Source of the DNA: Sphaerolaimus hirsutus
Taxonomy: Eukaryota; Nematoda; Chromadorea; Monhysterida; Sphaerolaimidae
DNA length: 64,000 bases
Direction: 5' to 3'
Assembly: GCA_964036195.1 (NCBI GenBank)
Contig: OZ038450.1
Coordinates: forward strand, 20,799,208 to 20,863,207
Part shown: in pieces, positions 6,701 to 51,772 of the stretch
How positions within the stretch are numbered: position 1 is the first letter of the stretch
Layout: each line of letters begins with the position of its first letter
Made by a program: the position numbers and the translations under genes
The notes under the pieces: generated by a model
Database searches by the model: none
Told to the model about the DNA's origin: nothing
What the model saw: the letters and a program-made list of their open reading frames with translations, nothing else

Positions 6701-9700
6701 GGCGCGCCCTGGCTCGAAAAAGTTCTCTAATTATGCTGATTTCGGACAAGGAAACATGGGCGGCGGCGGAAAATTCAACAAGAAATCTTTCGGTGGTGAT
6801 ACCGTGACATTTTCGAAGGAGCGCTACCTACAGGCGAAGTTCGTTCATTTGATGTTTGATTTTGCTAACCCGCTGCGTCACATCCTGTTTCAGTGGTTTG
6901 TATTTATTGCCGTGTTCGAAAACCTGTGAAATTTCGGCCTAGTTTTGATATGTCTCAAAAGGAATGGAAAGCGTGGACATCGATGAGGAAAATTGTCTGC
7001 AATTCTGACAACCACCGTGTTGATTAGCCAAGTCACTGAGATGTTCATTTTTCCAAATGTCGCCTTTTCTCTGCAGTCGTTTCGAATTTAGAATGCAAAA
7101 ATTTCCTTTTAGTCAACTCAAATCGAACACTCAGCTGTCAATTCGTCGTGTCGGAAGATTATGACGTCACAAAGCACATGACGGATCCAGATACATTAGT
7201 CGATTGGGAGAAGGTGGAAGAGCTGGTTCGTCTACGGTTGCCACTCCCATAATCAGTAAAATGTCATATGTCATTTGAAGTGTGAATTTGTGTAAACTGT
7301 CAAAGCTCATGTGAAATGTCAAGTTGCTTAAAATTTTTGTAACCGGCCAGCCATTACATGATTTTTGACAATTTGCATGCCTTTTGCAGTGGATTTTACA
7401 GGGTCTGAGACTGGCCTCTGATATACACTAGCTGCCGCGTCAATTGACTTTACCCCTCCCCCCCCATTGCAGCGTGTGACTCACGAGGACCCCCCGATGT
7501 GCCCCATCTGTTTAGGTCCCCCCGTTGCCGCCAAAATGACAAAATGCGGCCACACCTACTGCTGGCCGTGCGCGCTGCACTATTTCGCTCTGAGCGACAA
7601 AGATTACAGGCCCTGTCCCATTTGCTTCGAGAGCGTCGCTAAGGGACATTTAAAGGTGCGCTGGGGTTAGGGTTGGACATAAATAGGTTTTTACAGCTGC
7701 GATTTTAAGAAAAATGTATTTTGCTTTGCGATTTTTGCGATTTTTTTGTTGAAAAACGCAAGCCAAGTAAATATTTATGTGAAAACAGGCAAAGCAAGCT
7801 ATTTCTGCGATTTTGTCGATCTCAAAATGTGCGGATAGACTCCGAGTGGAAATTTCCCGATAAAATGCTGTGTCTGGCCCCTTACCCAGTACAATGGGTG
7901 TCGGTTTGATACTAAGGGACACATGTATACATTTTACCTTTTCCTGTAGACTGTGCGAACTGAGCTTGTTCCGAAAATTGGATCTGGCGTCAAACTGGAA
8001 ATGTATCTAATGCGACGTGACAAAAGTAATATTTTGGCAACTCCCTTGACTCTTGGAGCTACGCCAAATGATGGGGCACCCATTGTTTCGAATGCCTGTG
8101 GTTAGTTAGTAAACTAAAAATCCTCTCTAGAACAGTTTTTTTCCATTGTTTTTCCTCGTATGCAGACATTTATCCCTTTGCCAAGCTGCTCAAAGTGCGC
8201 AGCGGCAACATTTCCGCAATGATTATCGATCGCGAAAGGGCGGAGTTGAATGAAAAGTGGCTGCAGGATGAACGTGAGCCAGAAGCCGTGTTCATACAGA
8301 GCGCGCTCACTGGTTCGTTGCGTGTTGTTTAGTGCAGAGTTTAGTGTTTCTTGTTGGGTTCAATTTTCTGTAGTTTGGGGATGATGATGAAATACACCTT
8401 TGGCTGTGGTACTGAAATTGATGTGTTGATTTGGTACTCATGCATATCTGACCCAAACTCTTTTCTCACCCGTATTAATTGTGACGGAAAATTTTAAAAA
8501 CTGAGTAGATGTTTTATTTTTAGCCCTGAGCGAACGTGAGTCGATCGTCAACGTTGCAAAAATTGTTGGCGAGCCAGACTTCTCGCCAAATGCCGACAAC
8601 TATGTTTGCGAGGACAAAAGTGACCCTGTGCCATTGGGCAGCGCCGTGAAAGTTTCCCCGGTATGTTACCCGCGTGGTTCTCATTCACCTGGTCCCCCAC
8701 CCTGTATGTCAAATGTGCTACAACGTAAAAAGTCATGTAAAACCCCCCGAAAGATGGCAAACAAGTTTTACATTTTACATCACTTTTCACACTTTACATG
8801 ACATTGTAGTCTTGGATTGCCCCCTGGCGAATCCGACCTACTTTTATCATCACATTTCCAGACATGCCATTTTTATACGGACGCCTTCGATGGTGAATGT
8901 GAAGTGAAATGCGTTGATGCCGATCACGCTGAGAAGGGCGGCGGCAATTCACCAAATGATGATGAGAAATTTATTGCAAATATGGCAAATCAGACTGGAA
9001 AATTATCTGATGAGATGGGCAATTTGGCTGTGGAAACTGGAGATAACGCTTTTTTCTTCTACCAAGGTGGGTTATTGATGGCTGTTTTATTGGCCCACAC
9101 AAGCTAGTTGACATCGCAAATTCGTGTCAACTGAATGTTAACTAAATAACACAAAAATTTCTTGAAGGGCATCACACTCGACAGAAACAATGAAAATTTT
9201 AGTGTCACGATTAAGAACTAAGTATTCTCTATCACATAGGAAGGTTGAAATCGCGAAACCACAAAGTTGTTGAATTCAGTTTACACTAATTGTGATGTCA
9301 ACTAGTGTGTGTGGGCCTATTGTCGCTCTATTGCTAGTTCACGAGACTTAACCCGTCACGCTTGCAGCTTCCACTGGGCAGCACTACTACTTGCATCCAT
9401 TCAATGTCCGATGCATCCAACATACGTACCAGAATCTGGCAAGTGGTCCAGTAAAAATATCTGGTACCGTTTTGAATGTGGAGCACCATATAATGACTCC
9501 TATGCTGAGGGCTAGATACAGGTTTCTGAGACATTTGCCCCTGGCTACGAATTTTGCCATGGTTGAGTTGGATTTTGATGAAGGAATTTTGATGGACGAA
9601 ACGCTGAAACATTTTCAGGGTGAGTAGAATTTGCACATGCAGCAAGAGGTGTCAACTGTGCAAGTTGTCTAGAGAAGAAAGTATAAAACAAAAGAAATGA

Positions 9701-12700
9701 TAAGCAGTAAATATAGCTAGAAAGTGTTAAGTCAAGCGAGAGTATAACTTTCATTTTCAGTTTTTCGACGACTGGTTTAAAAATAACCACAGTTATAAAA
9801 AATGGTGTCAATGGAAGGCGAATAGTTTCATGAAACATTTTAAGTAACTGTTTACATAGTAAAATATTTATTTACATAGATACCGTATTTCCTCGAAATA
9901 CCCCCAGGGGGTTTATTTTTTCAGAGTGAGAATTTTGATAGAAAAACGTGAAAAATGCAACAATAACCACCATTTATACGTTTTTACAGCCTTATATAAG
10001 GATGTAGATGGTTGAAACGATGTTCTAACGTAACACAGTAAGTTTTTTGAACGTCTGTTATGCATTTCCCAGACCACAAATTCATAGTGGGGGGGGGTAT
10101 TTCGAGGAAATACGGTACATGATAAATTATATGCCGAAATTGTTGACACGATATTTAGTTTTCACAATTTAAGTCAAATTCGAGTCATGGCTGTATTTGT
10201 ATTTCTAACACAGATGAATCTGCAATGCGGCGTCGCGCTCGCCAACGCCGCCAGCGTGACGAAAACCGAATGAAAGCAAAGGGCGAAATGAGGGATTGGG
10301 CCATGCTTTTGGATCCTGGTTGGTATTAAATCAAGGACGTATCCAGGGGGGGGGGCGGGGGGGGCTGCAGCCCCCCCCCCCTTCCCGGGGTGAGACCCAA
10401 AAAGTCCCGGAAAATGCTACTTTTCCTACATATTTTCCGATGTTTCTTAAAAATTTTGCGCGCAAGCGCGCAATTTCGTCCCCATGCATTGTATTTTCAG
10501 CGGATCGGCCCCTGTAAACCAATATACTCGGAAATAAAACCCATTTTTGCGATTTTCGCTGTATATGTATGCATTTTACATACATATAAAGCGGTTCCTG
10601 GCGCTGGCGCCAACGCCAATAGCGCCATGGAATGGTGCCTTTGTATGGCGCTAGCGCCAAAACGCCTTTCCGTCCCTATATAGGGAAAAATTTTAGGGGG
10701 GGGGGGGCTGAGCCCCCCCGTTCGCTGGCCCCCGTAAACAAGCAGCCCCCCCCCGCTCAAAAATCCTGGATACGTCCCTGTATTAAATTTTTTATTAATC
10801 TTCCATTTCTACTTTCGTTGTGATTTCTTTGGTTCAGCGCGTGTTTGATTCATCCTGGTTTGATTTTGTGAAACTTCTAAATGTGGGAAATGATGACTTC
10901 GATAATCTGACTTATCTGAAGACTCTAAACGGATCGATAGGACTGATCCCACACCATCTTTTAAATCACCATTTGAGTGTTGAAATAAATCCCATCAAAA
11001 TCAGCAGTCAATCCTGACAACCCCCCAACTTAGCGGATAACCCCCATCAAAATCACCACCCAATCCTGCCAACCCCCCAACTTAGCGAATTACCCCCGTT
11101 ACGTCGCCGCGGCCGACATGCAAGGCGGGGTAGAGCCAGAAGTGCGAGTAACGCGTACAGTGCCCTCGGCGCAGAGCGAGTTGACAAATCTGTGGGCGGG
11201 GAGTTACGGTAGCGGGGGCGTGGCGGACGCACCCCCAGTGTTTCAGTTGGATGACATGCCTGGATTGGGGGAGGGGGTTGAGCAGGTGGGTTGTTGGTTT
11301 TGCTTTTTACTGGACTGCCATTGTCTGTGTGCGGGACTGCATGCGTCGGGAATTTGACCGGTTTTTTTATTGTGGTAATGGTATTGGAATTGAAAAATGT
11401 CTGGGAGATTTTATTTGATTTGAAATATTTTGAAAATATCGTAAAATCGCTCAAAATTTTCAAATTTTTCAATTTTCAGTTATTTTCATTTTTACAAGGT
11501 TTTTCAAAGGAGATATCTCAAAGCTCAAAGGAGATGTTTTCTCAAAGCCACTTTTCGATGCTGAATGGGATAGAAGTCACTCTAAGGTCCCACACACGCT
11601 AGTTGACGCCAAAATTAGCGTCAACTCAGAGTCAACTGGTCAAAAATTCAATTGACTCTGAGCCATTTACAATATGTATCCAAAAAATCTCCTTCTTTCA
11701 TTCTACATCAATCGACTTCTCAATATTTCTTAATCAACACAGGTAAAAAATTAAAAATAGTTATACTTAAAACAGTTGACTCTGAGTTGACTCAATCGAC
11801 ATCTAAAAAGTAGCGTCAACCACCGTGTGGAGCGCCTAAACTACAGACTACCATAATCTCTCAATTCACAGACGCCCAGCCAGAACAGCCCGCCAATGGG
11901 CGTGTGGGCGTCCAGAATGAGCAGCAGCGCGACCCCGCAGCAGAATTCTCCGCCCCAACCCCCGGCACAGAATCACAATGCGACTGTCAATTCACCGGCG
12001 GAGATTGACGAGGCTGGACGTGCTGAAGGTGTCACTATGACGTCACAGCCGAGTTTTGCGGAGGTCAGTGTGGGTGTTGAAAGGGAAGGCAGCTTTGTGG
12101 GGGGGGGGGGTTCTCTAGCTATTTATCTGTCTATGGATGGCAGAAATTTTTTGAATAAGCTCCCTTGGCCATGAACGCGCTCCACCTTCCAATCACGCAG
12201 CTATTTTTCATGTATGCGCATTAAATTCATGTGATATCATTCAATTTTACTCAAAATGTCTAATTTCTTACAAAATCTGTAAATCTTTTACGTTGTCGGC
12301 TATTGTCCAAAATACCTTTTTTTGCTTTTCTTCACATGATTTTTCAGATTTTTTGCCTCCTACAAAACTGATAATTGAGTGTCTCCTCTACAGATGTTAC
12401 GTCTCGGCAAACCAAAGGCCCACTCACCCCCTAAAAGGGGTGCAGCTAGTCCCGCTGATGCGCAACAGTGTAATGACAATGTGATCGATGCGGAAATCGC
12501 TGCTCCAAGTTTCGCCGAATCGTTTGGCTTGGCGCTGGAAAGTACGCTGGGTGCTTCTGAAAATGGTGAGTGTGACTCGAACGGGATTGTGGTCTAGATT
12601 AGTGATCGAAACGCCCCAAAGCAAAAAGCGCCGTGGCTCTTTTCGCGCCATTTTGCTCTGGAGCTTGGTGCCAAAGTCCTGGGACCAGTCCCGCAAGTGG

Positions 12701-13093
12701 AGAAGTAAAATGGCAAAAGCAAAGTGAAATGGCAAAGGCGAAGTGAATTGATAAGTAAAATGGCAAAAGCGAAGTGAAACTAATTATTTTTATCTTTATT
12801 TCGTTTTTGCCATTTTACTTGCAGTTTCACTTCGCTTTTGCCATCTCACTTTTCCACTTACGGAACTGACACCTGGTATTTATTACATCACTAGTCCAGA
12901 CATGTCCCGGTCTCCCTTAAAGTTGGTCAAGTTGCTAACCAGCACTTAAAAGTCTACATCAATCAATTCTATTACAGAGCCGGGCATTTCCGTCAGCGAG
13001 TACACCGGAACGAAAGGCAAAAAGGGCAAATCGAAGAAATCGAAACAAGTTTTACTATTCACTACTGGCGCCGCCGCCCCTTCATTTCAGTGA
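736..13093 (+). CDS. RNF10: RING finger protein 10 (RNF10)-type E3 ubiquitin ligase, 15 exons
   Basis: Exons: 736-937, 1251-1354, 6654-6838, 7135-7225, 7473-7655, 7950-8100, 8166-8312, 8524-8660, 8862-9066, 9368-9619, 10214-10318, 11086-11285, 11872-12063, 12394-12565, 12978-13093. Joined, they give 2442 nt (813 aa) in one frame, close to the roughly 811 aa of vertebrate RNF10. The C3HC4 RING uses C204, C207, C219, H221, C224, C227, C242 and C245. Family landmarks outside it are YLQANCQFVVSED, the FFFYQ..GQHYYLHPFNVRC block, MLRLGKPK near the C-terminus, and a basic KGKKGKSKKSK tail ending in LLFTT. The family acts as ubiquitin ligase, with reported roles in ribosomal-protein ubiquitylation and neuronal signalling. 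ATG 736 is the first in-frame ATG after an in-frame TAA near 709; an upstream non-coding exon is possible. Exon 3 has tandem acceptors 9 nt apart (6654 or 6663). An ATTAAA at 13277 is a possible poly(A) signal. The intron after exon 2 is 5.3 kb and packed with transposons. Confidence 0.95.
1450..1654. mobile_element. CACACACTAG-type MITE
   Basis: Inverted ends GGCCCACACACTAGTTGACA and the complement ending CTAGTGTGCTGGC, with a second inner inverted pair. It is in RNF10 intron 2. Confidence 0.75.
4306..4600. repeat. GGAAAACGGAAA simple-repeat element
   Basis: Degenerate repeats of ACGGAAA begin with AGGGTGTCAAAAAAATTTTT, the same end found at 30400 and 44515. Related copies are at 29826-30412 and 44234-44524. 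Confidence 0.65.
5497..5630. repeat. Small inverted repeat
   Basis: AATTAAGTGATCATTGTGTG and its near complement 60-80 bp later. Confidence 0.5.
7240..7427. mobile_element. Eroded introner-family MITE in RNF10 intron 4
   Basis: Inverted GTAAAATGTCA and TTTACAGGGTCTGAGACTGG ends, with diverged termini. It is in the antisense orientation relative to the gene. Confidence 0.55.
8692..8823. mobile_element. Introner-family MITE in RNF10 intron 8, antisense
   Basis: It is flanked by CTG at 8689-8691 and 8824-8826, with degenerate TIRs and the usual inner AAAGTCATGTAAAA and TTTTACA inverted pair. In this orientation the duplication reads CTG, not CAG, so it cannot form the splice junction. Confidence 0.65.
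9092..9317. mobile_element. CACACACTAG-type MITE in RNF10 intron 9
   Basis: Ends GGCCCACACAAGCTAGTTGA and the complement TCAACTAGTGTGTGTGGGCC. Confidence 0.78.
9891..10117. mobile_element. TA-flanked CCGTATTTCC element, RNF10 intron 10
   Basis: Ends CCGTATTTCCTCGAAATAC and its exact complement, each next to TA, with a G run at one end. Confidence 0.8.
10332..10780. mobile_element. hAT-like MITE with 8-bp duplication
   Basis: TIRs CAAGGACGTATCCAGG and CCTGGATACGTCCCTG are flanked by perfect TATTAAAT at 10324-10331 and 10781-10788. Inside are GCGCGCAAGCGCGC and a GGCGC palindrome cluster. It is in RNF10 intron 11. Confidence 0.9.
10994..11090 (+). repeat. 52-nt tandem duplication carrying two 3' splice sites
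   Basis: Two copies of CATCAAAATCA...CCCCCCAACTTAGCG end in acceptors at 11033 and 11085. Only the second keeps the RNF10 frame. Confidence 0.8.
11586..11832. mobile_element. CACACACTAG-type MITE in RNF10 intron 12
   Basis: Ends GGTCCCACACACGCTAGTTG and a diverged complement, with inner AGTTGACTCTGAGTTGACTC inverted pairs. Confidence 0.65.
12682..12872. mobile_element. CTG-flanked MITE, CAAGTGGAGAAG subfamily
   Basis: It is flanked by CTG at 12679-12681 and 12873-12875. The TIR is GGACCAGTCCCGCAAGTGGA against GTGTCAGTTCCGTAAGTGGA. The inside repeats AAAATGGCAAAAGC. It is in RNF10 intron 14; a second member is at 61618-61908. Confidence 0.75.
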
Positions 13094-13756: not shown

Positions 13757-16700
13757 TCAACTAAAACTCTTCCATCTGGTGTAACTGACGATGGCAAACG
13801 ATTTGAGAACATTTTAGAATTTTTACGTTACCATAGAAGAACGATACAAAAATAAAATACAAATATAATCCATAGTTGAAAACCATTTTCGAGTGAAGAT
13901 TTTTAAGATTTTTTAATTCGAAAATGTGTAATGCAAACAAAAATTACATCGGTCTATTTTGTGGCAACAGCGTTGAAGCCTACTGAAACATTGAGAATGT
14001 TGAGAGGTAGAAAGAAGCTCCAAGAAAGAATGTACTTGGTCCGGCTGAAAAGTCCACGGGCACTGCTCGCTATTCGCGCTAGGGGTAAGCTATGGTCATA
14101 AAATTTTGACAGGTTAAGATATCAGGTGCTTTGAGTTTTCGCCTAAAATTTTACCCCTCTAGCTCCACTCACTGCCATTTTATGACCATGGCTTACCCCC
14201 GAATGGCGAGCACTGCCCGGGGACTTTTCAGCCGGACCATGTACAAATAGTTGGAAAAAAATTGGTCATCGTAGAAACGCCCAAAAATTAAGGCACTTCT
14301 CTCAAAAGCTTTTGCCATCGTTAGGTATCATGAATTCACCGGAAACACGCACAAATTATTCCACACACGTACATTCCACATACCTCGCTTCAATCCTCGA
14401 ACCTATACCACATCGCTGAGATCAATCACTGCGCCGCGCCGTCAACTCACGTCCTATTGGGGCAGTTGTATACGAGGTGGCCGGCGCCGCCGCAGCCGTT
14501 GCACCGCTTGCCGACGCGGCAGTCCCTGGCGAAGTGGCCCGGCTGGTTGCAGTTGTAGCACAGGTTCGATGTGTTCGCCGCGCTAGCGCCCACTTCCGGT
14601 CTGATGAGTTGTTTTGTAGAGCTAGCGATGTCAACGGATCAAGCGGGTCATACTGGTGCCAGAACCAGTGAAATGTAAAATAGCATGCAATGTCAAGACG
14701 CATGTAAAATATTTTCTTATTTTACCGATAGACATTTGACATGACTTTTGACACTATGACATTTTACTTGACTTTTGACATTTTACAGTCTGGGAGTGAC
14801 CCCTGAGCAACTAGATTGGGTTAAGTAGTTCGGGACTTTTCAAAAATTCAACGTAAACATAAATCACTTCGTGAATGACATACCTATACTCCAGTGACTT
14901 TACACCTTGCACCCGTGGTCCACGCTGGAAGCGTGCCAATGGTATACTCCGGTTACTTTACACCTTGCACGCGTGGTTCCCGCTGGAAGTGTGCCAACGA
15001 TGGGTAACGCGTGCGAGTTTCATAAAAAGATCACATATGATTCTTGTTATAATGTTATTCATTAACATATTCCCATGGATGAATTTTTTCATCTTTTGTA
15101 CGGAAATCGCATGATTTAATAATCATTGGCACGCTTCCAACACGAGACATAAATCAGTGCGAGGGCAGAGTATCATGTACGCCGAGTATATAAAACATGC
15201 GATTTGCATGAAAAGATGAAAAACTTCATTTGCTGTTATAATGTTTTATGTTACCTGTTCACAACAATGAATTTTCAAATCTCTTCATAACACTCGCATG
15301 GTTTTATTATCATTGGCACGCTTCCAACACGAGACATGCATCGACGCGAGTGCAGAGTATCAAGTCCGCATAGTATACTTGCCTCAGCGTGGAGGGACGG
15401 CGTAATCTGTTCCCGGCGCTCTACCACCACAACAAACTCAAACATAGCGTTTCAAATTCCAAAGCTCACATACCTGCCTCCTCTAAGACCTCCACCCGAC
15501 ACATTCAAATCACCCATTCCCCCTTCCAGTTCCCCTTCACTCTCGTCACTCTCAACGCTGGCATCGTCCAGCAGACAACTGCCGGAGAGCACCGCCTCCA
15601 CGGATCTGACCACGGGGGATTTGTCCACTGTGTCGATGGCTTGTACGTGCAGCTCGCCGGACACGGCGCAGGGGTCGAGCATGGCCGCCGCGCTGGGCAG
15701 GCTCGCTGCGTGGGTGGCGCACTGGTTTGTATGCGTGTGAGATGAGAGAGGGGGGGGGGCTATAAAATGTTATTGTGATAATGATATGAACTGTGTGAAG
15801 TGTTAGTGAAGTTTTAGTGTGAAGTGAAATGTCAAATGTCAACGTTCAACTAAAATGAAAAAAGTGATTACTGAACTTTTGACATTTAGCATGACATTTT
15901 ACATGACATTTAACAAATTTGTATGACATGTGACATTTTACGTTACAGGGTGCGGGACAGTTACCAGGTATCATAGGTTGTTACTTTTAGACAGCTTTTG
16001 AGGGGTAGAACCAATCCAAAAAAAGGAAATCAAATAAAAAACAGCCCAAAACTTGCCGACTTTCAATGAAGCGCTCACACCGTACAACTTGTTCGGAGTG
16101 ATAGACGGTGGTTTCGACACCGGAATAGTAACCCTCAGCGCCAGCGGCGGCAAGCGTCGATAAGTAGAGTCTAGAATAACGCGCAGAAAATTGTTTTTGC
16201 TCACGCGAACTGAATTCCCATAGTCGACGAGGTAAACCTGCAAAGTGGAGAGTTAACTGAAACATTTCACTGGTTCGTAAAATTTAATGTCTGATCAAAC
16301 CTGGAAATTATCGGCGTGTGAGTCCAATCTCACAGCCCTGACAAATTTGTCGTGTAGGTGGATTGCGCCCAAGGTTCCTATGTTGAATTTTGTTACAGTA
16401 AGAAGGATACCGTATATTCCAATGACATACACAGCATTTGTGAACAGGGGGGGGGGGCAGATAGCATTACGGAGCAGGTGAACGAGGCAATTTTGTGAAT
16501 TGTGAATTTTATCTGTCCCTCATGGGTCTGTGCCATCCCACATAGGGTTGGAAAAAATATATTTTTTAACGACCCCGATTTTTAAAAATAAAAATCGCTG
16601 GAGTTGAAATTTGCCCCAATTCTCTCTAAAATCGTCTCTAAAGGTAACAAAAGCCATATAAATTGATATGCAGCGCAGTCTTATGCTTTCTGTGGTAATA

Positions 16701-19700
16701 CAAGTACTGTAGAGTTTTAAAAAAGCTTGAAAATCAGTTATTTTAAAGTTTAAAAGTAATTGACTGGTTATATTTGCAGCGTAAATTCCATCTCATCGAT
16801 CATTTGCAATTTTGTTTGCAGAAATTGCACGTTCTTGCTGAGAACAAAATATAAATTATCTTGGGAGTGAACATGGATGCATTTGCAAAAATGTTTTATG
16901 TTAAAACACATATAGCGTATTACCTCGAAATACCCCCAGGGGGTTTATTATTTCGCCAGCAAAATTTGAGGGGGGGGGGGTAATTCGAGGGGGGGTTTAT
17001 TCGAGGGGGGTCTATTATTTCGCCAGAAATTTTCGGAAATTCCCCATACACAGACGTAGAAAAATCGAACAATCACATAGATTCATATGTGTTTATAGGC
17101 ATATTTATATTACTGTATATACACAAAAACCCTTCCCTAACGTCACTTAATCATCAGTTTTAACATGTGTTCTGCATTGTACCGATCACAAACTGCGGTA
17201 TTTGTCATGTACATTCACGTTTCACTCAATTTTAGGGGGGTATTTCGAGGGGGGGTTTATCATTTCCTCAGCCGAAATTTAGGGGGGGGGGGTATTTCGA
17301 GGGGGGGGGTATTTCGAGCGGGGGGGGGGTTAATTCAAGGGGGGATAATTCGAGGTAATACGGTAATAACTAGGGTTCAAACGGGATTGACTTTTCGGGA
17401 TCGGGATCGGGATCGGGATTCACTTTTTGAGATTTCGGGATCGGGATCGGGATCGGGATTGGGGTTTCGGGATCGGGATCGGGATCGGGATTGGTTTTTT
17501 GAGATTTCGGGATCGGGATCGGGATCGGGATTGGCCGGGATTGGGGTCACGGGATCGGGATCGGGATTGGGATAGGCATTTTTCCGGGATCGGGATTGGG
17601 TTCTAGGGATAGAAATTTCGGCCATTTTTCTGGCATTCACAGTTGTTCATAAACGTCTCAAAACACTGTTGGATGCCAGAAAAGTGGCATAAAATTGACG
17701 CTGGGGGTTTGCATCCACTTTTTTGCATGCAAAAACGTCATTATTTCACTTTTTATAATTTCCACTAATTTTTCCGGGATCGGGATCCCGGACTTGGGAG
17801 TTTCTCGGGATCGGGATCGGGATTTGTAAATTTTCGGGATCGGGATCGGGATCGGGATTGGTATTTTTGAGATTTCGGGATCGGGATCGGGATCGGGATT
17901 GGGGTTTCGGGATCGGGATCGGGATCGGGACCGGTAAATCCCGGAATTTCACGGGATCCGGGATCGGGATCGGGATCCCGTTTGAACCCTAGTAATAACT
18001 ATGAATACTTTCTAAAATCATTCAAAGTCTACCTTACATGCTTAAAAGCACGCAGAAATGGGTGCTACACCACCAAATTAGTTGTAAAAGTAATGAAAAA
18101 AGCAAATGATGGATTGCTTGCAAAAATTTTGCATTTTACCTAGTGCATGCGTACCAAAATTTTTCGCCAGCGATTTTTAATAAAAAAATTGGTACGGGTG
18201 CTGCGTTTTTTTTTATTAAAAAAAATAGCTTGCCAACCCTAATCCCACATCTAAACCCATCCCACATCCTGGCCCAGAAATTGTATGCCTGTCATATTTG
18301 ATGCGTATTCCTTGCATTTTTGGTGGATAATGGATGCAAAAAATGTTGATGATGAAAAAGTGCTAATTTAGAGCCACTTTCGATGACTCGGTGATTTAGC
18401 AGGTCAAAGCTGTACTCAATAACACTGACTGCACTCAATAGTCGTCAACTGTCATGTTTAAACAGACGGGGGCCTCGCCGTAATGAAAACCCGGCTGTAA
18501 TGAAAGCCTGGCTGTAATGTATGCCTACCCGGCCGTAATGAAAGCCTGGTCGTAATGTAGGGGATGCTACATTACGGCCAGGCTTTCATTACGGCCGGGT
18601 AGGCATACATTACAGCCAGGCTTTCATTACGGCCGGGTTTTCATTACGGCCGCTACACCCTCGTTTAAACACATGTGGTGTCAAATTGCCTTCAAACACT
18701 CTAACATGTTTTATTAGATAGATTACCTTGTGTCATCATGACTTTTTTGAAATTCCTTAAATTAAATACAGTCTTTTTGAGACAAAGTAGATTTAGATGT
18801 GGGATAGGTATAGATGTGGGATGAGCCTATAAGGAGCGATTTGCTTTCTATCCAACCCCCGAAGGGGAAAATCTAGAATACCCTGATAAAAAGTAGTGAT
18901 AAAAAATTTAACTGACCCGTCTCGAGCGCCGCCTCTGCACCCACGCAGTCATTTCTCAAATCTAAGTCCATACAGCGCAGACTTTTCCAATACTTTTCCA
19001 GAACAACCGTCCACACTCCGTTCACTGTATTTTAGCAAAACATGGTTGGCAGCATAGTTTTAAAAACGTATTTACGTTTACTCGATAAATACGTATACTT
19101 GAGTACCGCGTGAATACGTTTACGTTTTCTCCCGAAAAATATATCGGTACTCTCTTCCTCACGTACTTTTTGAAAGCGAGTACAGAAAAGGTATTTCAGA
19201 TAGGCTTTCATATTGGCTTTCCAGGGCTAAATGGAAGAAAGGGTTAAAAAGCTAACAATGGGTAAAAATATCGTAAATAGATTTTGAAATGGGAAAAACA
19301 CATTAACTAGTGAGTTTGAGGGTGAAAAGTTTCGGAATTCGTGATTTTAAGCGCAAATTGGGGCAAAATGTCGAAAAAACTGAGTAAAAAAATAATATAA
19401 AAAAGGAAGGGGCTACAAACCAAAGAACACAATCCTAACGCTGGTCCACTTTTGTCCCTTCAAACACATCAGATCGGGCATCAAGTTGGGCATATTGCCA
19501 AGAACATTCGGCTGATTTTCCGCCGGCCGAATGATTTGAGCCGGCGCAACGTTGTTTTGTGGTGCCTTCAACGCACTTGAGTGGTGTTGTCTGCGTAGAA
19601 AAATATTTCGGTTTGCGTATTGAAAACACGATGCGATGTCGCAAGTGGTATACCATAAAGTCACATCAGTGCCTAGAATTATGACTTGTGGTTTGTAGAT

Positions 19701-22700
19701 GCTCTTATTAGGGAAGTATTTGCGAAAAAATTCGCGTGCAATTAGGGTCCAAACGGGATCCCGATCCCGAATCTCGAGAAATTTCGGGATTTTGTGGTCC
19801 CGATCCCGAAACCTCAATCCCGATCCCGGAATTTGAAAAAGCCAATGGCGATCCCGAGATTTTAAAAATCCCAATACCGATCCCAGAAAAATTCACAGAC
19901 ACAACAGGTGCCAGAAATGGCACTTTTAAAGGACTATTTTGTATGCAGTTTGCAAAAATTTTGCGCGTATGCGCTCATTTTCCCACCTCCATCTATTTAT
20001 ATCTCTGTTGCGTGGGCATGGACACCACTACAAATGGACTCGATACAGTGACCATTAAAATAGTTAAAGGTTAATACACATGCATATATGGTAGATAGTG
20101 GTGTGAATGACAATGCCAGGCAGCCCATTGCGCAGTGCCTAAATGAATCTAATGCATTGTTTTGGATGCCAATTTTATCCAACGTTTCTGGCATCCATTG
20201 TTTTTGGTGTTTTGGCTCCTTTTGTGAAATATCAGGAACCCCCCCTGAAAACGCAATTTTTTAGACCTAAATCCCGATCCCAAAAAAAACGTCAATTCCG
20301 ATCCCGATCCCGAAGGGTCAATCCCCCGATCCCGATCCCGAAAAGTCAATCCCGTTTGAATCCCTACGTGCAATCGTCCATTTTTATGTCGACTAGTTAC
20401 GTATACCGTCTTTTGTCGAACGTTTATGACTTTAAGTTATGTTGGGCCATCCCAGGGGAGTGAAAAATTTTTTTGAGAAAAACCCGGCCATCCCGTTATG
20501 TATACTTGCCCACCCTGGCAAAACAGACGCCCAGTGCAATCTCCCAACAGAGGCCATCCCCAGTGCAATCTATAAAATTTTACCGCCTGTTATCTAGTAA
20601 TTCTACTGGGGGGAACAATGTTCCGTCAGACTATTTTGAAGAGGAACTATTCAAGGGGGAGTAATTGTTACGCCAGAATTTTCAACCACATTTCATCAAA
20701 TTCACCAAAAAACTTCTTTTCCATCTCTACTTAGAACCCTCTAAAATATGCACGTTTCGGGGAGGTCGATTAGGGGCCTCATTATAATACCACAGCAACA
20801 ACTGTAGTAAAAGCAAGTGAATGTTACAAGCTAATGTAATGCCCCCGTTGACGTATATAGGGTTGGAAAAAAAATCAATTTTTTTTAAACGCCTTGATTT
20901 TTTATATTAAAAAATCAATTTTTTTAAATTGATTTTTAAAAATTAAAATCATATTTTTTTTTAAATCGCCAAAAATGGGGGTATGGAGAAAAAATATATG
21001 TGTATGTCAAGTGTCAGACAATGTATTTTTACGTCTATTGTGGTGATATTATGACTGTGCAGTCATGGGATAGCATTATAAGCAGTGATTTCTGTCAAAA
21101 ATATCCATTTTACGTCAACTTATTACATATATCGCCTTTTGTTGAACGTTCATGACTTCAAGTGAAGTTCAGCATGGAATAGTGCTTAAATAAGGTTGTA
21201 AGAGAAGGCTAATACATTGACAGTGATGTTTCACACTGTAGAAGTATGTTGGAGCACATTGGTTAGATATTATATACTACACTAGCATATCACGGCTTAT
21301 TATTGCATGGTAACATGAATAAATGGAAGATTTTACACTAAAAATGCCCCAAAACCCATGAAAACACCACAAATGGTAACATGTATGAGAAATTGTGCGC
21401 TTGCGCGCAAAAAAAATGCAAAATACCTAGTGCAAGTCTACCAGAAATTTTGACTTTTGATTTTTTTAAATTAAAATCAGTTTCCACCCTTGAGTTTTTT
21501 TAAATAAATCAGATTTTTTAAATCAAGTGCCAACCCTACCACACACAGTTCACAAAACCCCCTCCAAAAAGTACCAACCCCCCAACCCCACTCACGGGGG
21601 TACCACGCCGGTGGCACTCCCCATCGGCGTGTTGGTGTGCAGCGGGTCGGCCACGAGCGGCATAGACGCGACATTCGTGCCGGAGACGTTGCGCACGGAT
21701 GAGGACACTGACAGCGTGTGTTGCGATTGTGACGTTGAGACTGGGGGGCGATTGTAGGGTATACAGTAGGTTCGGTGAAGGTTCGTCCAGTCATCGTTGT
21801 ACATAGCACAGGGGTAGCTAGATTTTGACCCTCCAGGGGTTGCCCCACCCCCCATTTTCCTACACCCGATGTAGCATGTTATGGCATGTAGTCATTAGCA
21901 TTGGAAATTTTTCCCGAGCATTTTCCACAGACACTTTATAATATTTTCTTTTTCAGAAATTTTCTTTGATTTCTTAAACTATCAGACAACATAAAAATTC
22001 CCATTTTCATTTATTATTTTATCTGGCTTTCCAAGGGGAAATTTACCTAATTGTATTTTACTCTGAAAAATTTTCTTGGAGTACCGTATTACCTCTAAAT
22101 ACGTGGTATATTATTTCGCCGGCAAATTTTGAGGGGGGGTTATTCGAGGAGGGGTTCATAAGATTATTTCATCAGAAAATTTCGTGAGGGATTGTAGTAA
22201 ACAATAGGCCAAAAATACCCAAAACTGGTAATAAATGAGAACAAACAGGATATATAGGGATATATTTATCTGCAGACTAAAGTGTGGCTGCGATGTAATT
22301 TGGCAATCATCCACATTGCATACACGATGTACATCACTCGAGTCGGGGCGTATTTCGAGGGGGAGTTAATTCGCGGTAATTCGGCATATACTTTCACATA
22401 AACTCACCGCGCGAGGGCACTGCCACATCAACCATTTTCGTTTTTCTCAAAACCGCACTGAGCCAAGTTTCCGTATAGGTATCGTAAAAGTCAACTGCGT
22501 ATTTTGCACCGCCGTCAAGTACGTCCACTATGGACATTTGGTTTGATGGGTTTTCGGCACAGTTCTGCAATAGTGTAGAGGGACGTATCCAGGATTTCTG
22601 AGCGGGCGGCTGCTTGTTTACGGGCTCAGCCCCCCAAAAAACTTTAGCTACATAGTGGCGGAATGGCGCCATGGCGCTGGCGTAATTAGTAGGCGCGACG

Positions 22701-25700
22701 CCATGGCGCCATTGGCGTTGGCGTCAGCGCCATGGAACGCAAATATACATAGGTACAAAACAGCAAAAAGCACAACATTTTTAATGATTTGCGGCCACAT
22801 GGAGCAAATCTGATGATAATACCTTATATCTGGTGAAGAATGCGCGCTTGCGCGCAAAATTTTTTACGCTGACGTTTAAAAAGTCGCATTTTCTGGTCAC
22901 TTTCTGGTCTCACCCCGGGAGGGGGGGGGGGCTGCAGCCCCCCCCCTGGATACGGCCCTGATAGCGTATATCAGGGGTATTGTAAATAGATTTGCACCCC
23001 CGCGGGGGTTCACACAGATAGTAAATCGCTCCCCCGGGGAAATAGATAGCTGAAATTTTTTATTCGAGGGAGGGGGGGTTCAGGCTTTTCCCAAATTACA
23101 AAACCACATTCAGTGCAGTCCCTATAAACTCCCGTGTTGGTACAAATACAAACACATGTTTATACTCGGATGACATCACACTTAGTATGGAAACCTACCA
23201 TAACCGATCTGAATAATGAACCAATAATATAGTTTTTAATGATAATTTTTCGTTTTTACTTTGGAATAATTTATTACGAAATTTATCACAAGATTTTATT
23301 CATAAAATTATGGTAGGATTCTGCGCATACTTTGCGGTCCGCCGAGTATACCAAAAATAAAAATAAAACAAAACAATGTACAAATACGTATTTATCCAAA
23401 AATTTGCTATTTCCCTATTTATTTTTAGTGCATTTCTTAAGCCATAATGCAAAAGCCGGAAAAAACACACATGCAATCTCTGTGTGACTTCTTCAACGGG
23501 CTGGATTTCAACCAGGTTCTTATTCAGTTGACACCTGGGGGCAGTCCCAGACCCTGTAAAATGCCCTGTAAAATGTCAATGTCATGCAGTGTCAAAAGTC
23601 ATGTAAAATGACCGGTAAAATGGCAAACGTACATTTGCCATTTTTCCGGTCATTTTACATGACTTTTGACACTTTGCATGACATTTGACATTTTACAGGG
23701 TCTGGGACTGGCACCTGATAGCCGCCCTCGCAAGGGACCACAGATCGTGGTTGGGCGGCGGCGGCGGCAATATATTATCGTCCACATTGGATTCAGGGAA
23801 CGTTTCGATGTTTCCGTAATCGATGAAGTGAACCTGAATTTTAGAATTGGCAATTAATACAAGGGTAATGTTACGTCTAGGGTCCACACGGATAGGCGAT
23901 CCCGAATCTCGAAACATTTCAGGGATTTTGCGGTGCCGATTAGGGTTCAAACGGGACCGCGGTCCCGGTACATGGTTCGGCAAAAAGTCGGGACTGGGGC
24001 GGTCCCGGTCCCGGTCCCGACACCCCAGTCCCGGTCCCGGTCCCGACAATTAAAAAAAGCCAATCCCGGTCCCGGTCCCGACCACCCAGTCCCGGTCCCG
24101 GTCCCGGTCCCGGTCCGGGAATTTTATAGCGGTCCCGACAAGGGATGCAAAAAAACGTATTTTTCAAAAAAATTTTGCCAGAAATGGCACTTTTCTAATG
24201 CGATTTTGTAGAAACATCTAAAAAAAATTTGCGCGCCAGCGCGCAAATACCCAGCCAATGATTACTATGGATTTTTCCATAAAGTGACAGCGTTAGAAAG
24301 GTCCCCAACATGATTCTAGTACGAAATATAGGTATATAAAGATACTTATATTGTAGACGTTGGCGCCAACGCCAGCGCCAATACTTGCATGGCGTTGGCA
24401 CCTACAACTGGCGCCGCCCCCCCCTCCCAAAAAAATCCTGCGTACATCGCGTTTCATCAAATATTCACAACTTCAAGTGAAGATGGCAATGGAATACTGC
24501 TTGAATAATGTTATAAGAAAAGGCTTATACATTGAGAGTGGTCCTACACACAGTGGAGGTGTGTGGAACAACATTGGCTGAATATTACATACCAATAAGG
24601 TTCAAACAATACCGCGGTTCCGGTACCTGGTTCGGCAAATCCCAGTCCCGGTCCGGACCCCCCAGTCCCGGTCCCGGTCCCGACAATTGAAAAAAGCCAG
24701 TCCCGGTCCCGGTCCCGACCCCCCAGTCCCGGTCCCGGTCCCGGTCCGACATTAGAAAATTTCTGGTCCCGGTCCCGGTTCGAAAAACTGGTCCCGTTTG
24801 AACCCAAGTGCCGATCCCGATCCCGAAACCCCAATCCTGGTCCCGATCCAGATCTCGAAATCTCAAAAAACGAAACCCGATGCCGGTCCCGAGAACTTCC
24901 AAACCCAATTCAAATCCCGAAAAAAAAGCATAATCCCAATCCCGAACCCGGAAAAATTTGCCAACTTAATAAAATGCCATTTTTACACTAATAAACATGT
25001 GAACGGAAACCTCAAGATTCCACTTCATGTCACTTTTCTGGCATCCAGCTGTGTTTTAGACCATTTTATGTACAAATTAAAGGAATACTCTTTAAAATCA
25101 GAACATTTTACAATATCCTAATCCGGAAAAATGCCGTCTAGAGTAGGGTTGGCCGATGTTTTTTTAAACGTTTGCCAAAATTTTTAGTACTAAGCACTAG
25201 GTATTTTGCAAAATTTTAGCGCGCAAGCGCGCAATTTCACACACAAATTGACGTTGGTGATTGTTTGTCATTGGTTTTGTGGCATTTTTAGTATCAAAGC
25301 ATCCATTTCTATGTGCTGACATGGGTAAATAAGCCGTCATATGTTGCTTTAGTATATAATATTCAGGTAATGTGCTTCCATGTACCTCCACAGTGTGTAA
25401 CATGATTCCCAAAGAAACAACCTCTTGTTATAACCTTGATTGATCACTATTCCGTGCCAAACTTCACTTGAAGTCACGAACATTCGACTATAAGGCGATA
25501 TATGAACATGTCGATAAAAAATGGACATTTTTGACACAAATCACCACTTATAACGCTATCCCATGGCTCCACAGCCATTATATGGTCATGTATAACATCA
25601 CAGAGTATTGTCACTTGTCTGATAAACCTAATGTTGACCCAGGAACATATATGGGAGCTTTTTAAAAAAAAACGTTAAAAAACATGGCGTTAAAAAACGT

Positions 25701-28700: not shown

Positions 28701-31700
28701 TTGTCATAAAGTTGACATCAAAAATTGTCATCAATTATATCTTGTCACACACACTAGTCAGGGGTAGGAAAGGGGGGGTTCCCCCCCCCCCAAATCGCCC
28801 AGCTATCTATCTATTCCAGAGGCCGCTGAGCTATCTATCTATCCCGGAGGCAAAATTTTGGGCTACTATCCCCTAAACCCCTCCCCCCAATCGGCCAGCT
28901 ATCTACCTATCTGGAGCGATTTTTGGGAAACTATACCCTAATTTTCGCTCAAAATCGCTATTTTCATACCTATATATAGATTTTCACCTCCAAAATCACT
29001 AGTTCGTGCATCTAACTGCCTATTTTGAGCTATTTTTAGTACTATATGTCCTTATATACCCATTTTTAGCCATTTTTCACCTACTTTCAGCAATTTTTCT
29101 CCTTTTCCTCCCTTCTATGCCTATATATTGAGCCCCCGCGAACCCCCCCCCCCAGAAAAATTTTCAGCTATCTATCCCTCCGGAGGAGTGATTTGCTATC
29201 TATCCAACACCCAGGAGGGCCGAAAACTAGAATACCCCTGACACTAGTTGACATCAAAAATTGTGTCAACTAAATTTTGGATAATTATTGGTTTTACTTG
29301 GCAGCAGGGTTGGCAAAATCTCAGAGAAAAAAAATCAAATACAATTTTTATACAATTTTACTACAATTTTAGTAAAAAGAATTTCACAAAAACTAATCCT
29401 GGTCACAAAGAATAAAAAATAAAAATAAAATAATAATAAAATAATAATAAAATGGAAAATTGAAGAATTAAAAATAAAAATAAAATGGAAAATTGACGAA
29501 AAAATAAAAATAAAATATAATTTATTTACAATTTTACTGCAGTTTCAGTAAAAATAATTTTACTAAAACCAACCCTGCTTGGCAGACGCTACAGTGTATG
29601 CACAACTTCATGTGTGCAGTGGCAAAAAGGATGAAAATTGGGGTTAAGGGTGACTTCTAGTGAAAATTATGGTCATCGTTTTCAAAAATACTTACTTTTA
29701 CATTTTCCCATGGAAATAAAAGTAAAAAATTCTACTATACGTTTTCTGCACTCAGGAGTGACTAAAAATGAATATTTTACATTAACTTTGAAAACATTGA
29801 TTACTTTCAACAATCTGGTTTGCAGGCATGCTTAGGGTGACAAATTTCCGTTTCCGTTTTCTGCAGGCAAATTTTTTCCATTTTCCATTCCGTTTTCCGG
29901 TAATTGAATTATTTTTTCCATTTTCCGTTCCGTTTTCCGACTACAAAATTTTTTTCCATTTCCGTTCCTGTTTTTCTGGCTAATTATCCCTTTTCTGGCT
30001 AAATTTTCAGTTTTTCTGCCTTTTTCCGGCTGAATTTTCAGTTTTTCCGGCTGAATTTTCAGTTTTTCCGCCTTTTTCCCGTTTTCAGGCTCAATTTTCA
30101 GTTTTTCAGCCTCATATTCCCCTTTTCTGGCTCAATTGTCTGTTTTCTGTTTCAGCCAAACTGGTAAACATGCATGCAGGTTTTCAATTATGTGACTTTT
30201 TCCATTTTCCATCAAAATTTCAGCAATTTTTAGCATTTCCAGGAAATTTCCACAATTTTTTTTGTTTTCTGGCAAAATTTCATTTTTCCATTTCCAGTTT
30301 TCCGGCCTTGTTTTCCTTGTTGCTGAAATTTTATTTCCGTTTTCTGGCAAGTGCAAAAAAATTTCCGTTTCCATTTTCCATAACAAAATTTTTTTGACAC
30401 CCTAGGCACGCGCTGTTCCAATGTTTATCATTACTATTCGCTCATGTATAGGGTTCAAACAGGATCCCGATCCCGGATCCCGTGAAATTCCGGGATTTAC
30501 CAGTCCCGATCCCGATCCTGAAACCCCAATCCTGATCCCGATCCCGAAATCTCAAAAATACCAATCCCGATCCCGAAAGTTTTCAAATCCCGATCCCGAT
30601 CCCGAGAAACTCCCAAGTCCGGGATCCCGATCCCGGAAAAATTAGTGGAAATTATAAAAAGTGAAATAATGACGTTTTTGCATGCAAAAAAGTGGATGCA
30701 AACCCCCAGCGTCAATTTTATGCCACTTTTCTGGCATCCAACAGTGTTTTGAGACCTTTATGAACAACTGTGAATGCCAGAAAAATGGCCAAAATTTCTA
30801 TCCCTAGAACCCAATCCCGATCCCGGAAAAATGCCTATCCCAATCCCGATCCCGTGACCCCAATCCCGGCCAATCCCGATCCCGAAATCTCAAATTACCA
30901 ATCCCGATCCCGATCCCGAAATCTCAAAAAGTGAATCCCGATCCCGATCCTGATCCCGAAAAGTCAATCCCGTTTTAACCCTACTCATGTACACACATTG
31001 CCCAAATTCCCAAAATGGTTCGTACGTTTTTTCTGTTTACACACTGTTGAACTGTGCTGAACTACAGTATCTCAAGAATGAGCAGTTTTTAAAAAAAATT
31101 TATGGTCTTCATTTTTGAAGATCATGTTCATACATGTTCATAAAAAATGTTTCATGAAGATGTATGATAAACTAGATGAGATCTGGATCATTTCACAGCA
31201 GTAGATTTTCTGCCAATTGCTGAACTGGTTTGCTGAAATGAAAGTGTCCGGATACAATTTTTTCACAAGATGCTGAAATGTTAAATTCAGCATATGACCA
31301 AAAATGCTGGAAAATCATCTAAATCCGTCCGAATTTGTCCGAATTCGTACGGTTGCTGAATGTCTGGACCCAAAAATGCTGGGCTAAAACCGTCCGAACA
31401 GCATTTTTTTAGTTCGGATTCGGCAGATGAAAACGTGCGTATGCCGAATATTTCGGCTTCAGTGTGCGTAGCGCCATTGACCCAACACCCGGGTGTTATA
31501 CAAGTTTTTAAAAAGTTAGCTGAAAATTGCTCCGATTTTGTATAACGACCGGGTGTTATAAACGGAGAAATACGGTACCACACCACTAATATTGGGCACT
31601 CTCAGACGATGTATCAGGCAAAGTTTCAAAAGTAATGAAAATGCCCTAGAAATTTCGTGAAGTAGAAACTTCGCATGAAATTTGAACATTTTACAGCGTC

Positions 31701-35876: not shown

Positions 35877-38800
35877 TCATTTATCCGGCCCCAGGCACTG
35901 CTCGCACTGCGACATGACCACCGGGTCGTAGGGCTCCACTTGGACGGTGGTGAAGGACAGGTTGTACTTGCACAACATCAGACCCCTGGCCTTCCGCATT
36001 ACGGCTATGGGATCGGCTAAGGGTTCTGAAGGGTTTTTGGGAGCGACTTTAGAAATAGAAAGCGATTTTTTTTTGAGACGATATCATTTGATATTATTCC
36101 AGCAAAGATAAAAAATGATCGGATGTTAGTTTGATGTCGAATTATGACAATCCAAATTTAATACGCAATCCAGTCAAACTTGCATCAACTGAAACTTGAC
36201 ATGAATTTTTTAAAATTTTACATACAATTTTACAATGTGACAATTTTCTACACCCGTAATATCATAAATACTAGCAGGACTTTCCTACAGACCTCGGTAA
36301 GGTTTCGGACAGTTCCCGCTAAAACTTTCCCAAAACCCACTTTACTTCCCATAAAACGTCAGAAAATAAAACAAGATAAAATTGGCTCTAAAACGAACCG
36401 ATGGCCAAATGCACAGCCAAGGCAGCCTGATTTGTTGTCAGCGACCACAGATGTAAACTGTGAGCGTGCACCACCCCAGGCACAGATTCCAAATCTTTTT
36501 GCACCTCTGCATAACTCACATCGGATGGAGTCGCTGAAATTTTTAAAAATGAGTTTAGTAAGAAATATGTAAATATGTCAGTCTCAACGCATTGTAAAAA
36601 GATTAGGAACGAACCCTCCATTAGGACTAGAATAGAATCCTTGAAAATATTTTTCGTAGTAACAAGCACCAAAAGTGAGAATATAAACGTGCATATCGGG
36701 TCGGCCAGCTGATACTGGGGCTGCGGTGGAAAAACAATAGTGTTGTGAATTTCAAAATTTTCTGGTTTGGGTACAAAAAAAATTCGGGTATCGGGGGCAC
36801 AGTTGTTAAAATGTATTTACATTTACACGAAAAAACTATACTCGAGTACTTTGTAAATACATATATTTACATATACTTGAAAAAGTACCCGTACTCACCT
36901 GTACGCGTACTTTTGAAAATTACAAGTGTACAGAAAATGTTTTTTGTTGCAAAAATCATAATTTTTTTGTCGCTAAAGTGAGAAGATCTTGAAGAAATCA
37001 TACCTTTTTAAAAAAAATACTAAATAATCACTTAAAACAACATATACGTCTAACTCACAAAAAAATCACTCTCACATGTGAAGAAGACGTATTTTTTACA
37101 TTTCCGAAGAAAAAAGTGCCCACTGTTACACATTCTATAAAAAAAATTACGCGCTTTTACACTTTCCTAGGACAAAAGTACTCGATTTTAAATTTTCCCG
37201 GAAAAAAGTAATTTACTCACATGTACTGAGTATGGGTAGGAAAAAGTATTTTACATTTTCTGTATTCAGGTGTGAGTAAAAAAGTATTTTACATACACAA
37301 ATACTTTGAAAAAAGTTCAGTATTTATAACATCTCTGGTATCGAGAAGCTCGAACCGGTTTCCAAACCCTAACAATCGGTTACATGGGTAGAAGAACATA
37401 CACAAACAAACATTATCAATCACGTATTATCAATTATATTATTAGGGATGGTATATTTGTTGGTATCAAAAATTCAAAATTAGGTTCCTATTTTATAATA
37501 AATCAATATCAAAATTAGGTGTAAAGAAAATGTGTTGAACAGCAATTTAGGGAAATAAATAAATAGAGAACAGACCCAAAAATAAATGACAAGCGCGGCA
37601 ACGACCACACCAGCACTCTGGACGGCGTCGCTAATAGCGTGCACATAGGCTGCACGCACGTTGATGTTATCCCTGGCGGAATTTTTGGCCCTTGCATCAG
37701 TGCGCTTTGTGCGCAACACGGGCTCGCCCGGGTACGTACTGGGGCAGTCCCAAACCCTGTAAAACTGCCGTGTAAAATGTCAAATGTCATGCAAAATGTC
37801 AAAAGTCGGGTAAAATGCCCTGGAAAATGGCAAACGCGTTTGCCATTTTCCAGGGCATTTTACACGACTTTTGACACTTTGCATGACATTTGACATTTGA
37901 CATGGCATTTTACAGGGTGCGGAACTGGCACCTGATGTTGACCGCCAGGGCAGAGTGCAGCGAGCGCATGGACGACCGGTTGGAGGGGGATGACGATGAT
38001 GATGATTGGTTGGGATCGGAGCCTGCATTGGGTTGGGAGTTGGGTGCAATTTACTGTTGTATTTACTGGAGTGGAGTGGAAGGGGAGTGAAGCTGGCGCT
38101 GGACATGAAAATTGTTAAGGTTGTGAACTCGACCCGAATCCCGTTTCCAAGTATATTTTGGTACCGAGAGTCGGAACCGAAGCTCAAACCCGAACAGGAA
38201 CCGATACCCGAACCGAAATTTCTTGAAAGCGAGAACCGAGAAGTGGAAGCGAAAATTTTGAAATTCCCAAACACTACATGACAGGACAATTCGGGAATTT
38301 TTACGGAAATTTGTGAAGTGCACCAAAAGATCTAAAAAAACGTTGTACAATCAAAGATCAAACACCCAACACAATAGAAACCACGTCAACAAACGAAAAC
38401 CAAACGCCCATCCCAACAGACCACCTTCACCCTCCTCAACACGGACACAATTGTGCTGCTCATGAACATCATGTCCACCATCAGCCACATCGGCATGCAC
38501 ATGGTCGACATTGTGCTCGTGCGCGTGCCCGTCTCTGTTGTGAGCGTGATGCGAGTGCCCGTGGCCGCACATGTGTAGGGTGACCATCATGCTGAGAGAA
38601 TGGATGGGATTTATGTGGCGATTGGGCAGTATTGCGATGGTTGTGATTTATTGATCGGCGTTGCAAATGGTTTCGATGAATTATCGTGTGAAAAATCGAC
38701 CAGGGTGTCAACTTTCTTTTTGCGGTTTCCTGAGTAAAAGTTTTACTTTTCCATTATAAACTTATATTGACACTGAAAGCAAACGCACTTTGTGAAAACA

Positions 38801-51395: not shown

Positions 51396-51618
51396 GTGGC
51401 AATCCCAAGCCCTGTAAAGTGTAAAGTAAAGTGTCAAATGTAAAGTCAAATGCAAAGTAAAGTGTCAAATGTAAAGTCAAATGCAAAGTAAACTGTCAAT
51501 TGTCATGTAAATTTCAGTAATAAAATCTTTTCTTTTTTGTTTTGATTGACACTTTACTTTGCATTTGACTTTACATTTGACACTTTACTTTGCACTTTAC
51601 AGGGCTTGGGACTGCCCC
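51396..51618 (+). mobile_element. Introner-family MITE, sense on +, inserted in the end of another copy
   Basis: CAG duplication at 51393-51395 and 51619-51621. Ends GTGGCAATCCCAAGCCCTG and CAGGGCTTGGGACTGCCCC, with the inner GTGTCAAATGTAAAGTC repeated. It sits directly at the start of a second, older copy (51622-51772). Confidence 0.82.
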
Positions 51619-51621
51619 CAG

Positions 51622-51772
51622 GTATCACTCCCAACCCTTGGAAAATGCACTGTAAATGTCATGCAGTGTCAAAAGTAATGTAAAATGCCCTGCTAACGAG
51701 TTTGCATTTTACATGACTTTGACACTTGGCATGACATTTTACATTTGATTTTACACGGTTTTCCGGTACAAC
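51622..51772. mobile_element. Older introner-family MITE
   Basis: GTATCACTCCCAACCCTTGG at left; inner CAGTGTCAAAAGTAATG and CATGACTTTGACACTTGGCA inverted; decayed right end. Confidence 0.65.

Follow-up and report, generated by a model that had tools for sequence, protein, structure and literature searches.

The window, by which we mean the whole 64-kb stretch that was analysed, is animal DNA as judged by its genes. On its minus strand, from about 32 to 14 kb, runs a gene that encodes two Tudor domains and includes an exon for a CCHC zinc knuckle (Pfam TUDOR 49.6 bits and 24.0, cut-off 23; zf-CCHC 45.2 bits). We infer that the Tudor and CCHC exons belong to one gene from their matching phases, which agree for most of the exons called outside the stretch around 16.8 kb and the gene's 5' portion. 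The window also holds an SLC30A2-like zinc-transporter (ZnT) gene (Pfam Cation_efflux 126.4 bits) and an exon at 50448-50696 (minus strand) that is likely to belong to a CRAL-TRIO gene (Pfam 23.6 bits against a cut-off of 23). The following features of the Tudor and ZnT genes are referred to below:

23715-23833, minus strand: upstream Tudor exon (VHFIDYGN...LARAAI-AG)
23535-23714, minus strand: putative exact MITE-intron of the Tudor gene, made up of the element (23538-23714) and the right CAG (23535-23537, acceptor), with the left CAG at 23715-23717
23471-23534, minus strand: downstream Tudor exon (G-TGT CQLNKNLVEIQPVEEVTQRLH; begins CQLNKNLVE)
21741-22407: called Tudor intron ending in CGCCCCCCAG, a C-run acceptor outside the element
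37739-37931, minus strand: second putative exact MITE-intron, in the SLC30A2-like gene, made up of the element (37742-37931) and the right CAG (37739-37741)

The 180-nt insert of the Tudor gene consists of a 177-nt palindromic element followed by CAG, with a further CAG on its left, and it interrupts the frame in phase 2; on the minus strand it reads GGCGGCTATCAG|GTGCCAGTCCCAGACC...GGTCTGGGACTGCCCC-CAG|GTGTCAACTGAA. Left in place, the frame meets a stop inside the element, whereas removal of the element together with the right CAG gives ATCAG|GTGTCAACTGAA, restores the frame and predicts the product A-A-I-R-C-Q-L-N-K-N-L-V-E. The sequence-only reading had described 23535-23714 as an exact MITE-intron whose splicing joins AIR to CQLNKNLVE, and the sequence bears out the first statement and agrees with the second: nothing but the element and one CAG lies between the two exons, and the predicted junction AIRCQL is identical in 6/6 residues to the third Tudor domain of Macrostomum P0121. 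This protein is the one homologue that speaks for the junction, aligning at 51.0 bits with the exact join and at 48.6 bits with a 6-residue insertion, a gap of 2.4 bits that must be regarded as small. It was also the sole match of a 517-aa partial Tudor model at E 0.01, with 8000 candidates scored; a 166-aa query found no Tudor orthologue at E 0.001 among 126 candidates. Pfam and PDB were both discarded as tests of the Tudor junction, since their matches stop before it (in the PDB 36 sequences matched, the best stretches ending at residue 78 or earlier). The donor that closes the downstream exon, CAT|GTGTGT, is weak.

The ZnT intron of 193 nt is preceded by ATCAG as well, lies in phase 2 and has the orientation of the Tudor copy, just as had been claimed for the two insertions. 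Taking out the element and the right CAG leaves ATCAG|TACGTACCCGGG and restores the frame. Two Plectus proteins top the matches of this gene among the 120 listed, a weak hint at a nematode-like host, the best listed homologue being Plectus sambesii P0001 with 52% identity, and the predicted product HSALAVNI|STYPGEPV aligns with the P0001 stretch QSVLSVPVSAYPTEEV without gaps and with 8/16 residues identical. The alignment scores 71.2 bits with the exact join and 67.0 with the insertion, again a small gap (4.2 bits), and support for the ZnT junction comes from this one homologue, the ZnT loop being poorly conserved; the junction stretch is absent from the second Plectus protein, P0002, and was seen in none of the other listed homologues. 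The Tudor and ZnT copies share 87% identity across 166 aligned columns, which bears out their assignment to one family. They are similar putative introns in different genes, alike up to both splice boundaries, which is one criterion for introners.

That the insert stays in the message, as the mark of a gene-breaking allele or a dying gene, would agree with the stop inside the element, and no transcript was seen. Against this, two unrelated genes carry the element in the same splice-ready orientation, and the other exons are open, with 0 stops in 628 codons where neutral change of 2-5% should have produced 1.3-3.1 (P(0) 0.25-0.055, which is weak); this count took exon 21739-21597 in the wrong frame, the correct frame being open too. 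The argument from intact exons was set aside as a main support because it is too weak to lean on, and the explanation as a whole appears most improbable to us.

In the window, 15 complete or fragmentary members of the family were recovered by similarity and profile searches. The profile was built from seven copies including the Tudor copy, so that the E-value of 9.9e-56 obtained by the latter is that of a sequence used in building the model. Two of the 15 are the exact introns, three (c7, c8, c62) are housed in introns with about 65-80 nt besides the element, c14 and c15 fall within called Tudor-gene introns of larger size, c31 stands beside a putative upstream Tudor exon, and the remaining seven, c51 and c12 among them, were assigned to no gene model. 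Seven copies are complete at both ends (c23, c37, c51, c12, c14, c62 and c8), among them the following:

51396-51618, plus strand: complete copy c51, CAG flanks
12682-12872, minus strand: complete copy c12, CAG flanks, diverged interior
14656-14802, plus strand: complete copy c14, CTG flanks, within the large Tudor intron 15473-14622

In all seven the 3 nt on either side are the same, namely CAG for four copies, CTG for two and CCG for one, and each copy starts with GT at exactly one end and with GG at the other (GGG for six copies, GGA for the seventh), the ends having been placed by eye and "GT end first" being a naming choice. Among the incomplete copies, c5a, c15 and c51b show CAG or CTG and then GT at the surviving end, and c7, with worn ends, reads CAG|AGG. 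The sequence-only reading had also proposed a CAG duplication at the Tudor insert. The CAG is indeed present on both sides, and because this is also the ordinary splice-site consensus, the case for a duplication rests mainly on the five complete copies other than the two exact introns, all of which have matching CNG flanks. Matching flanks in 7/7 complete copies and the hairpin are the signs of transposition. A search of the window for CAG|GT...CAG pairs with inverted ends returned 10 matches, compared with 0-5 in 20 shuffled controls; four of the 10 are the family's complete CAG copies, and most of the others are near threshold.

Identity between the hairpin arms, with gap columns left out, is 0.94 for the Tudor copy, 0.90 for the ZnT copy and 0.93 for c51, and ranges from 0.76 to 0.89 for c7, c8, c12, c14 and c62. 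The values of the exact introns would fit a later arrival, though the two exact copies differ from each other by 13%. The recent burst that copy divergence had been expected to date was not borne out: two exact copies are too few for dating, and arm divergence presumes arms that were identical at birth.

Some further repeats were seen in the window. The fragment c51b, at about 51622-51761, follows c51 head to tail and starts at the CAG that ends it (51396-51761 together), and c12 combines the family ends and CAG flanks with another interior and is perhaps of a related subfamily. At 1473-1633 there is a 161-nt palindrome of another family, of the form CAG|GT...CAG and with inverted ends matching at 17/18 positions, which looks like a second CAG-flanked MITE. 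An inverted pair of 297 nt, 98% complementary and with CCCGAT-type repeats, occupies 17556-17852 and 30558-30854. A 17-base TIR pattern matched one viral contig; 20 TIR bases were identical and elsewhere there were short matches only, and the match was judged to be chance.

The copies within other introns serve as controls for the two exact cases:

7226-7472, plus strand: RNF10-like gene intron containing c7 (about 7236-7420), about 65 nt of other sequence remaining
8661-8861, plus strand: second RNF10-like gene intron containing c8 (8692-8823), 66 nt remaining
62222-62455, minus strand: Slingshot-like phosphatase gene intron with its own GTGAGT donor, containing c62 (62280-62430), 80 nt remaining

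The Slingshot-like gene matches 2nt2 (E 3.7e-54); the gene that holds c7 and c8 we take to be RNF10-like from general similarity together with a RING match. The leftover of about 65, 66 and 80 nt is near the 63 nt of an element-free intron of the Tudor gene, and c7, c8 and c62 look like jumps into old short introns. It could be argued that the exact introns arose likewise, by entry of the MITE into an old intron whose remaining sequence was later lost up to the element ends, the more so as the three copies did enter introns and introns near 63 nt are present in the Tudor gene. About 65-80 nt around the element is, however, what secondary insertion would leave and what the three controls retain, whereas in the Tudor and ZnT genes the element end meets the CAG and no other intron sequence is left. 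Base-exact loss on both sides would have been needed, twice over, with the donor at the first base of the element and the acceptor at the right CAG, so that we consider this course of events very improbable.

The predicted RNA fold of the Tudor insert has an energy of -118.9 kcal/mol, compared with a shuffle mean of -41.3 (sd 3.5; z -21.9), and 0/200 shuffles were as good. Folding leaves the T of the terminal GT free and buries nearly all of the internal GTs. The terminal donor CAG|GTGCCA pairs best with U1 among the 13 GTs of the element (-6.8 kcal/mol, the next reaching -4.2) and lies within the range of the seven other called donors of the Tudor gene (-0.6 to -8.9). At the other end, the right CAG follows a C run (CCCCCAG), an arrangement that recurs in the called Tudor-gene intron ending in CGCCCCCCAG. 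The 3' side is less straightforward. The motif TTTTACAG occurs twice upstream of the Tudor acceptor, at distances of 19 and 31 nt, and once upstream of the ZnT acceptor, at 18 nt, and under the first-AG rule it would be favoured over the end acceptor. In the Tudor fold one TTTTACAG is open (probability of being unpaired 0.90/0.84) and the second is not, while the terminal AG is itself paired to bases of the exon; in the ZnT fold, with its single TTTTACAG paired, most of the terminal AG is accessible and GGCAG is partly open. The internal TTTTACAG acceptors cast some doubt on exact 3' splicing.

Splicing might be inexact, if a donor within the element, CCT|GTAAAA, or an acceptor within it, TTTTACAG, were used, with residues encoded by the element kept or the frame shifted. 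The internal donor combined with the end acceptor would leave 18 nt of the element in the message of either gene without loss of frame, and TTTTACAG, one copy of which is unpaired in the Tudor fold, looks a better acceptor than the end CAG and would in the ZnT gene retain 18 nt in frame, adding six residues. GTAAAA, on the other hand, pairs poorly with U1 (-1.6 compared with -6.8) and in both copies lies hidden within the stem, the Tudor message would, with TTTTACAG as acceptor, retain 19 or 31 nt, lose its frame and run into a stop, and no such insertion is found in the homologues compared (Macrostomum P0121 and Plectus P0001). Inexact splicing therefore seems unlikely to us, and exact removal of the element remains the preferred reading.

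How such an intron could come about can be pictured as follows. On landing, a small transposon would duplicate a 3-bp C-N-G target. If it landed in sense on a CAG with its GT end upstream, the left CAG would become the exonic end and, with the GT of the element, form the usable donor CAG|GTGCCA, and the right copy of CAG, placed behind the C run, would serve as acceptor. Excision of the element and the right CAG would restore the old mRNA exactly and leave the protein unchanged; the predicted empty sites before the gain are ATCAGGTGTCAA and ATCAGTACGTAC. The near-perfect hairpin may bury most internal GT sites and bring the two ends together, although so stable a structure might equally impede splicing. 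The DNA itself shows the ends, the flanks, the frame, the family and the hairpin; that splicing takes place, in which order things happened, which transposase group was at work and whether the hairpin plays any part are our inferences. It is probable that the Tudor insert became a spliceosomal intron in a single step, when a non-autonomous DNA transposon landed in a coding exon, and the proposal that MITE insertion made both the Tudor and the ZnT intron is well supported.

Transposons that make introns are established, with few animal groups reported. The algal introners of Huff et al. (2016) are reportedly MITEs, DNA transposons with TSD and TIR that make introns; TSD and TIR would be shared with the present family, whereas hosts and families differ. 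A larger survey of introners is said to have appeared in 2025. Introners of Chrysochromulina carry their own 5' splice site and take the 3' site from the target duplication (PMC9860276). The present introns are like them in being similar across genes and up to the splice boundaries, in an acceptor that would come from the duplication and in the predicted restoration of the mRNA, and differ in that the Chrysochromulina elements have 4-bp duplications and no TIRs, whereas here we find 3-bp CNG duplications, long TIRs, a full-length hairpin and an animal host. Introners of Symbiodinium share TSD and TIR and the derivation of one splice site from the TSD, yet their 3' site lies in the element and their 5' site comes from the TSD, the opposite of the choice made here (PMC9860276). 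An introner family is defined there by at least five intron copies genome-wide, to be compared with two exact cases in 64 kb here. TSD and/or TIR are common, not universal, among introners. For the transposon itself, the closest description is that of the NuwaI group of the PHIS (PIF/Harbinger-related) superfamily, which is characterized by a CWG target duplication, TIRs of 12-61 bp usually starting with GGG and occurrence in animals only, its autonomous members encoding a DDE transposase and a Myb/SANT protein (PMC4482050). The family agrees with it in the CWG duplication (CAG in four and CTG in two of seven), in GGG at one end (6/7) and in its animal host, and departs from it in GT at one end (7/7), in one CCG copy and in palindromes that exceed 61 bp per arm in several copies. 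The reading we favour is that a MITE whose target sites resemble those of NuwaI (PHIS/Harbinger-related, CWG) gave rise to two introns in the manner of introners. In Caenorhabditis, the 168 gained introns are enriched in direct repeats of 3-5 bp and their source sequence was not found (PMC9169325); short direct-repeat flanks are common to both cases, but here the source family is visible. No report of this MITE family was found in the literature searched, which is no proof of absence.

More tentatively, and with the odds rather against so broad a proposal, a CAG-targeting group of animal transposons might be preadapted to form perfect introns: with one TIR end reading GTG and not GGG, any copy that entered an exonic CAG in sense, that end leading, would give an immediate correct GT-AG intron, the hairpin would hide most rival sites, the family would be an ongoing source of introns in this possibly nematode-like genome, and animal introns with 3-bp repeat flanks, whose source is missing, could have come from related CNG-targeting MITEs. 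Taken together, the locus presents a probable further case of an intron-making transposon, its interest lying in the host group, the CAG rule and the built-in controls. An animal MITE that would be the exact intron of two genes, with intron insertions nearby as controls, offers a concrete and testable source of introns, and it suggests a simple rule by which target site and TIR may supply both splice sites, the CAG giving the exon end and the acceptor.
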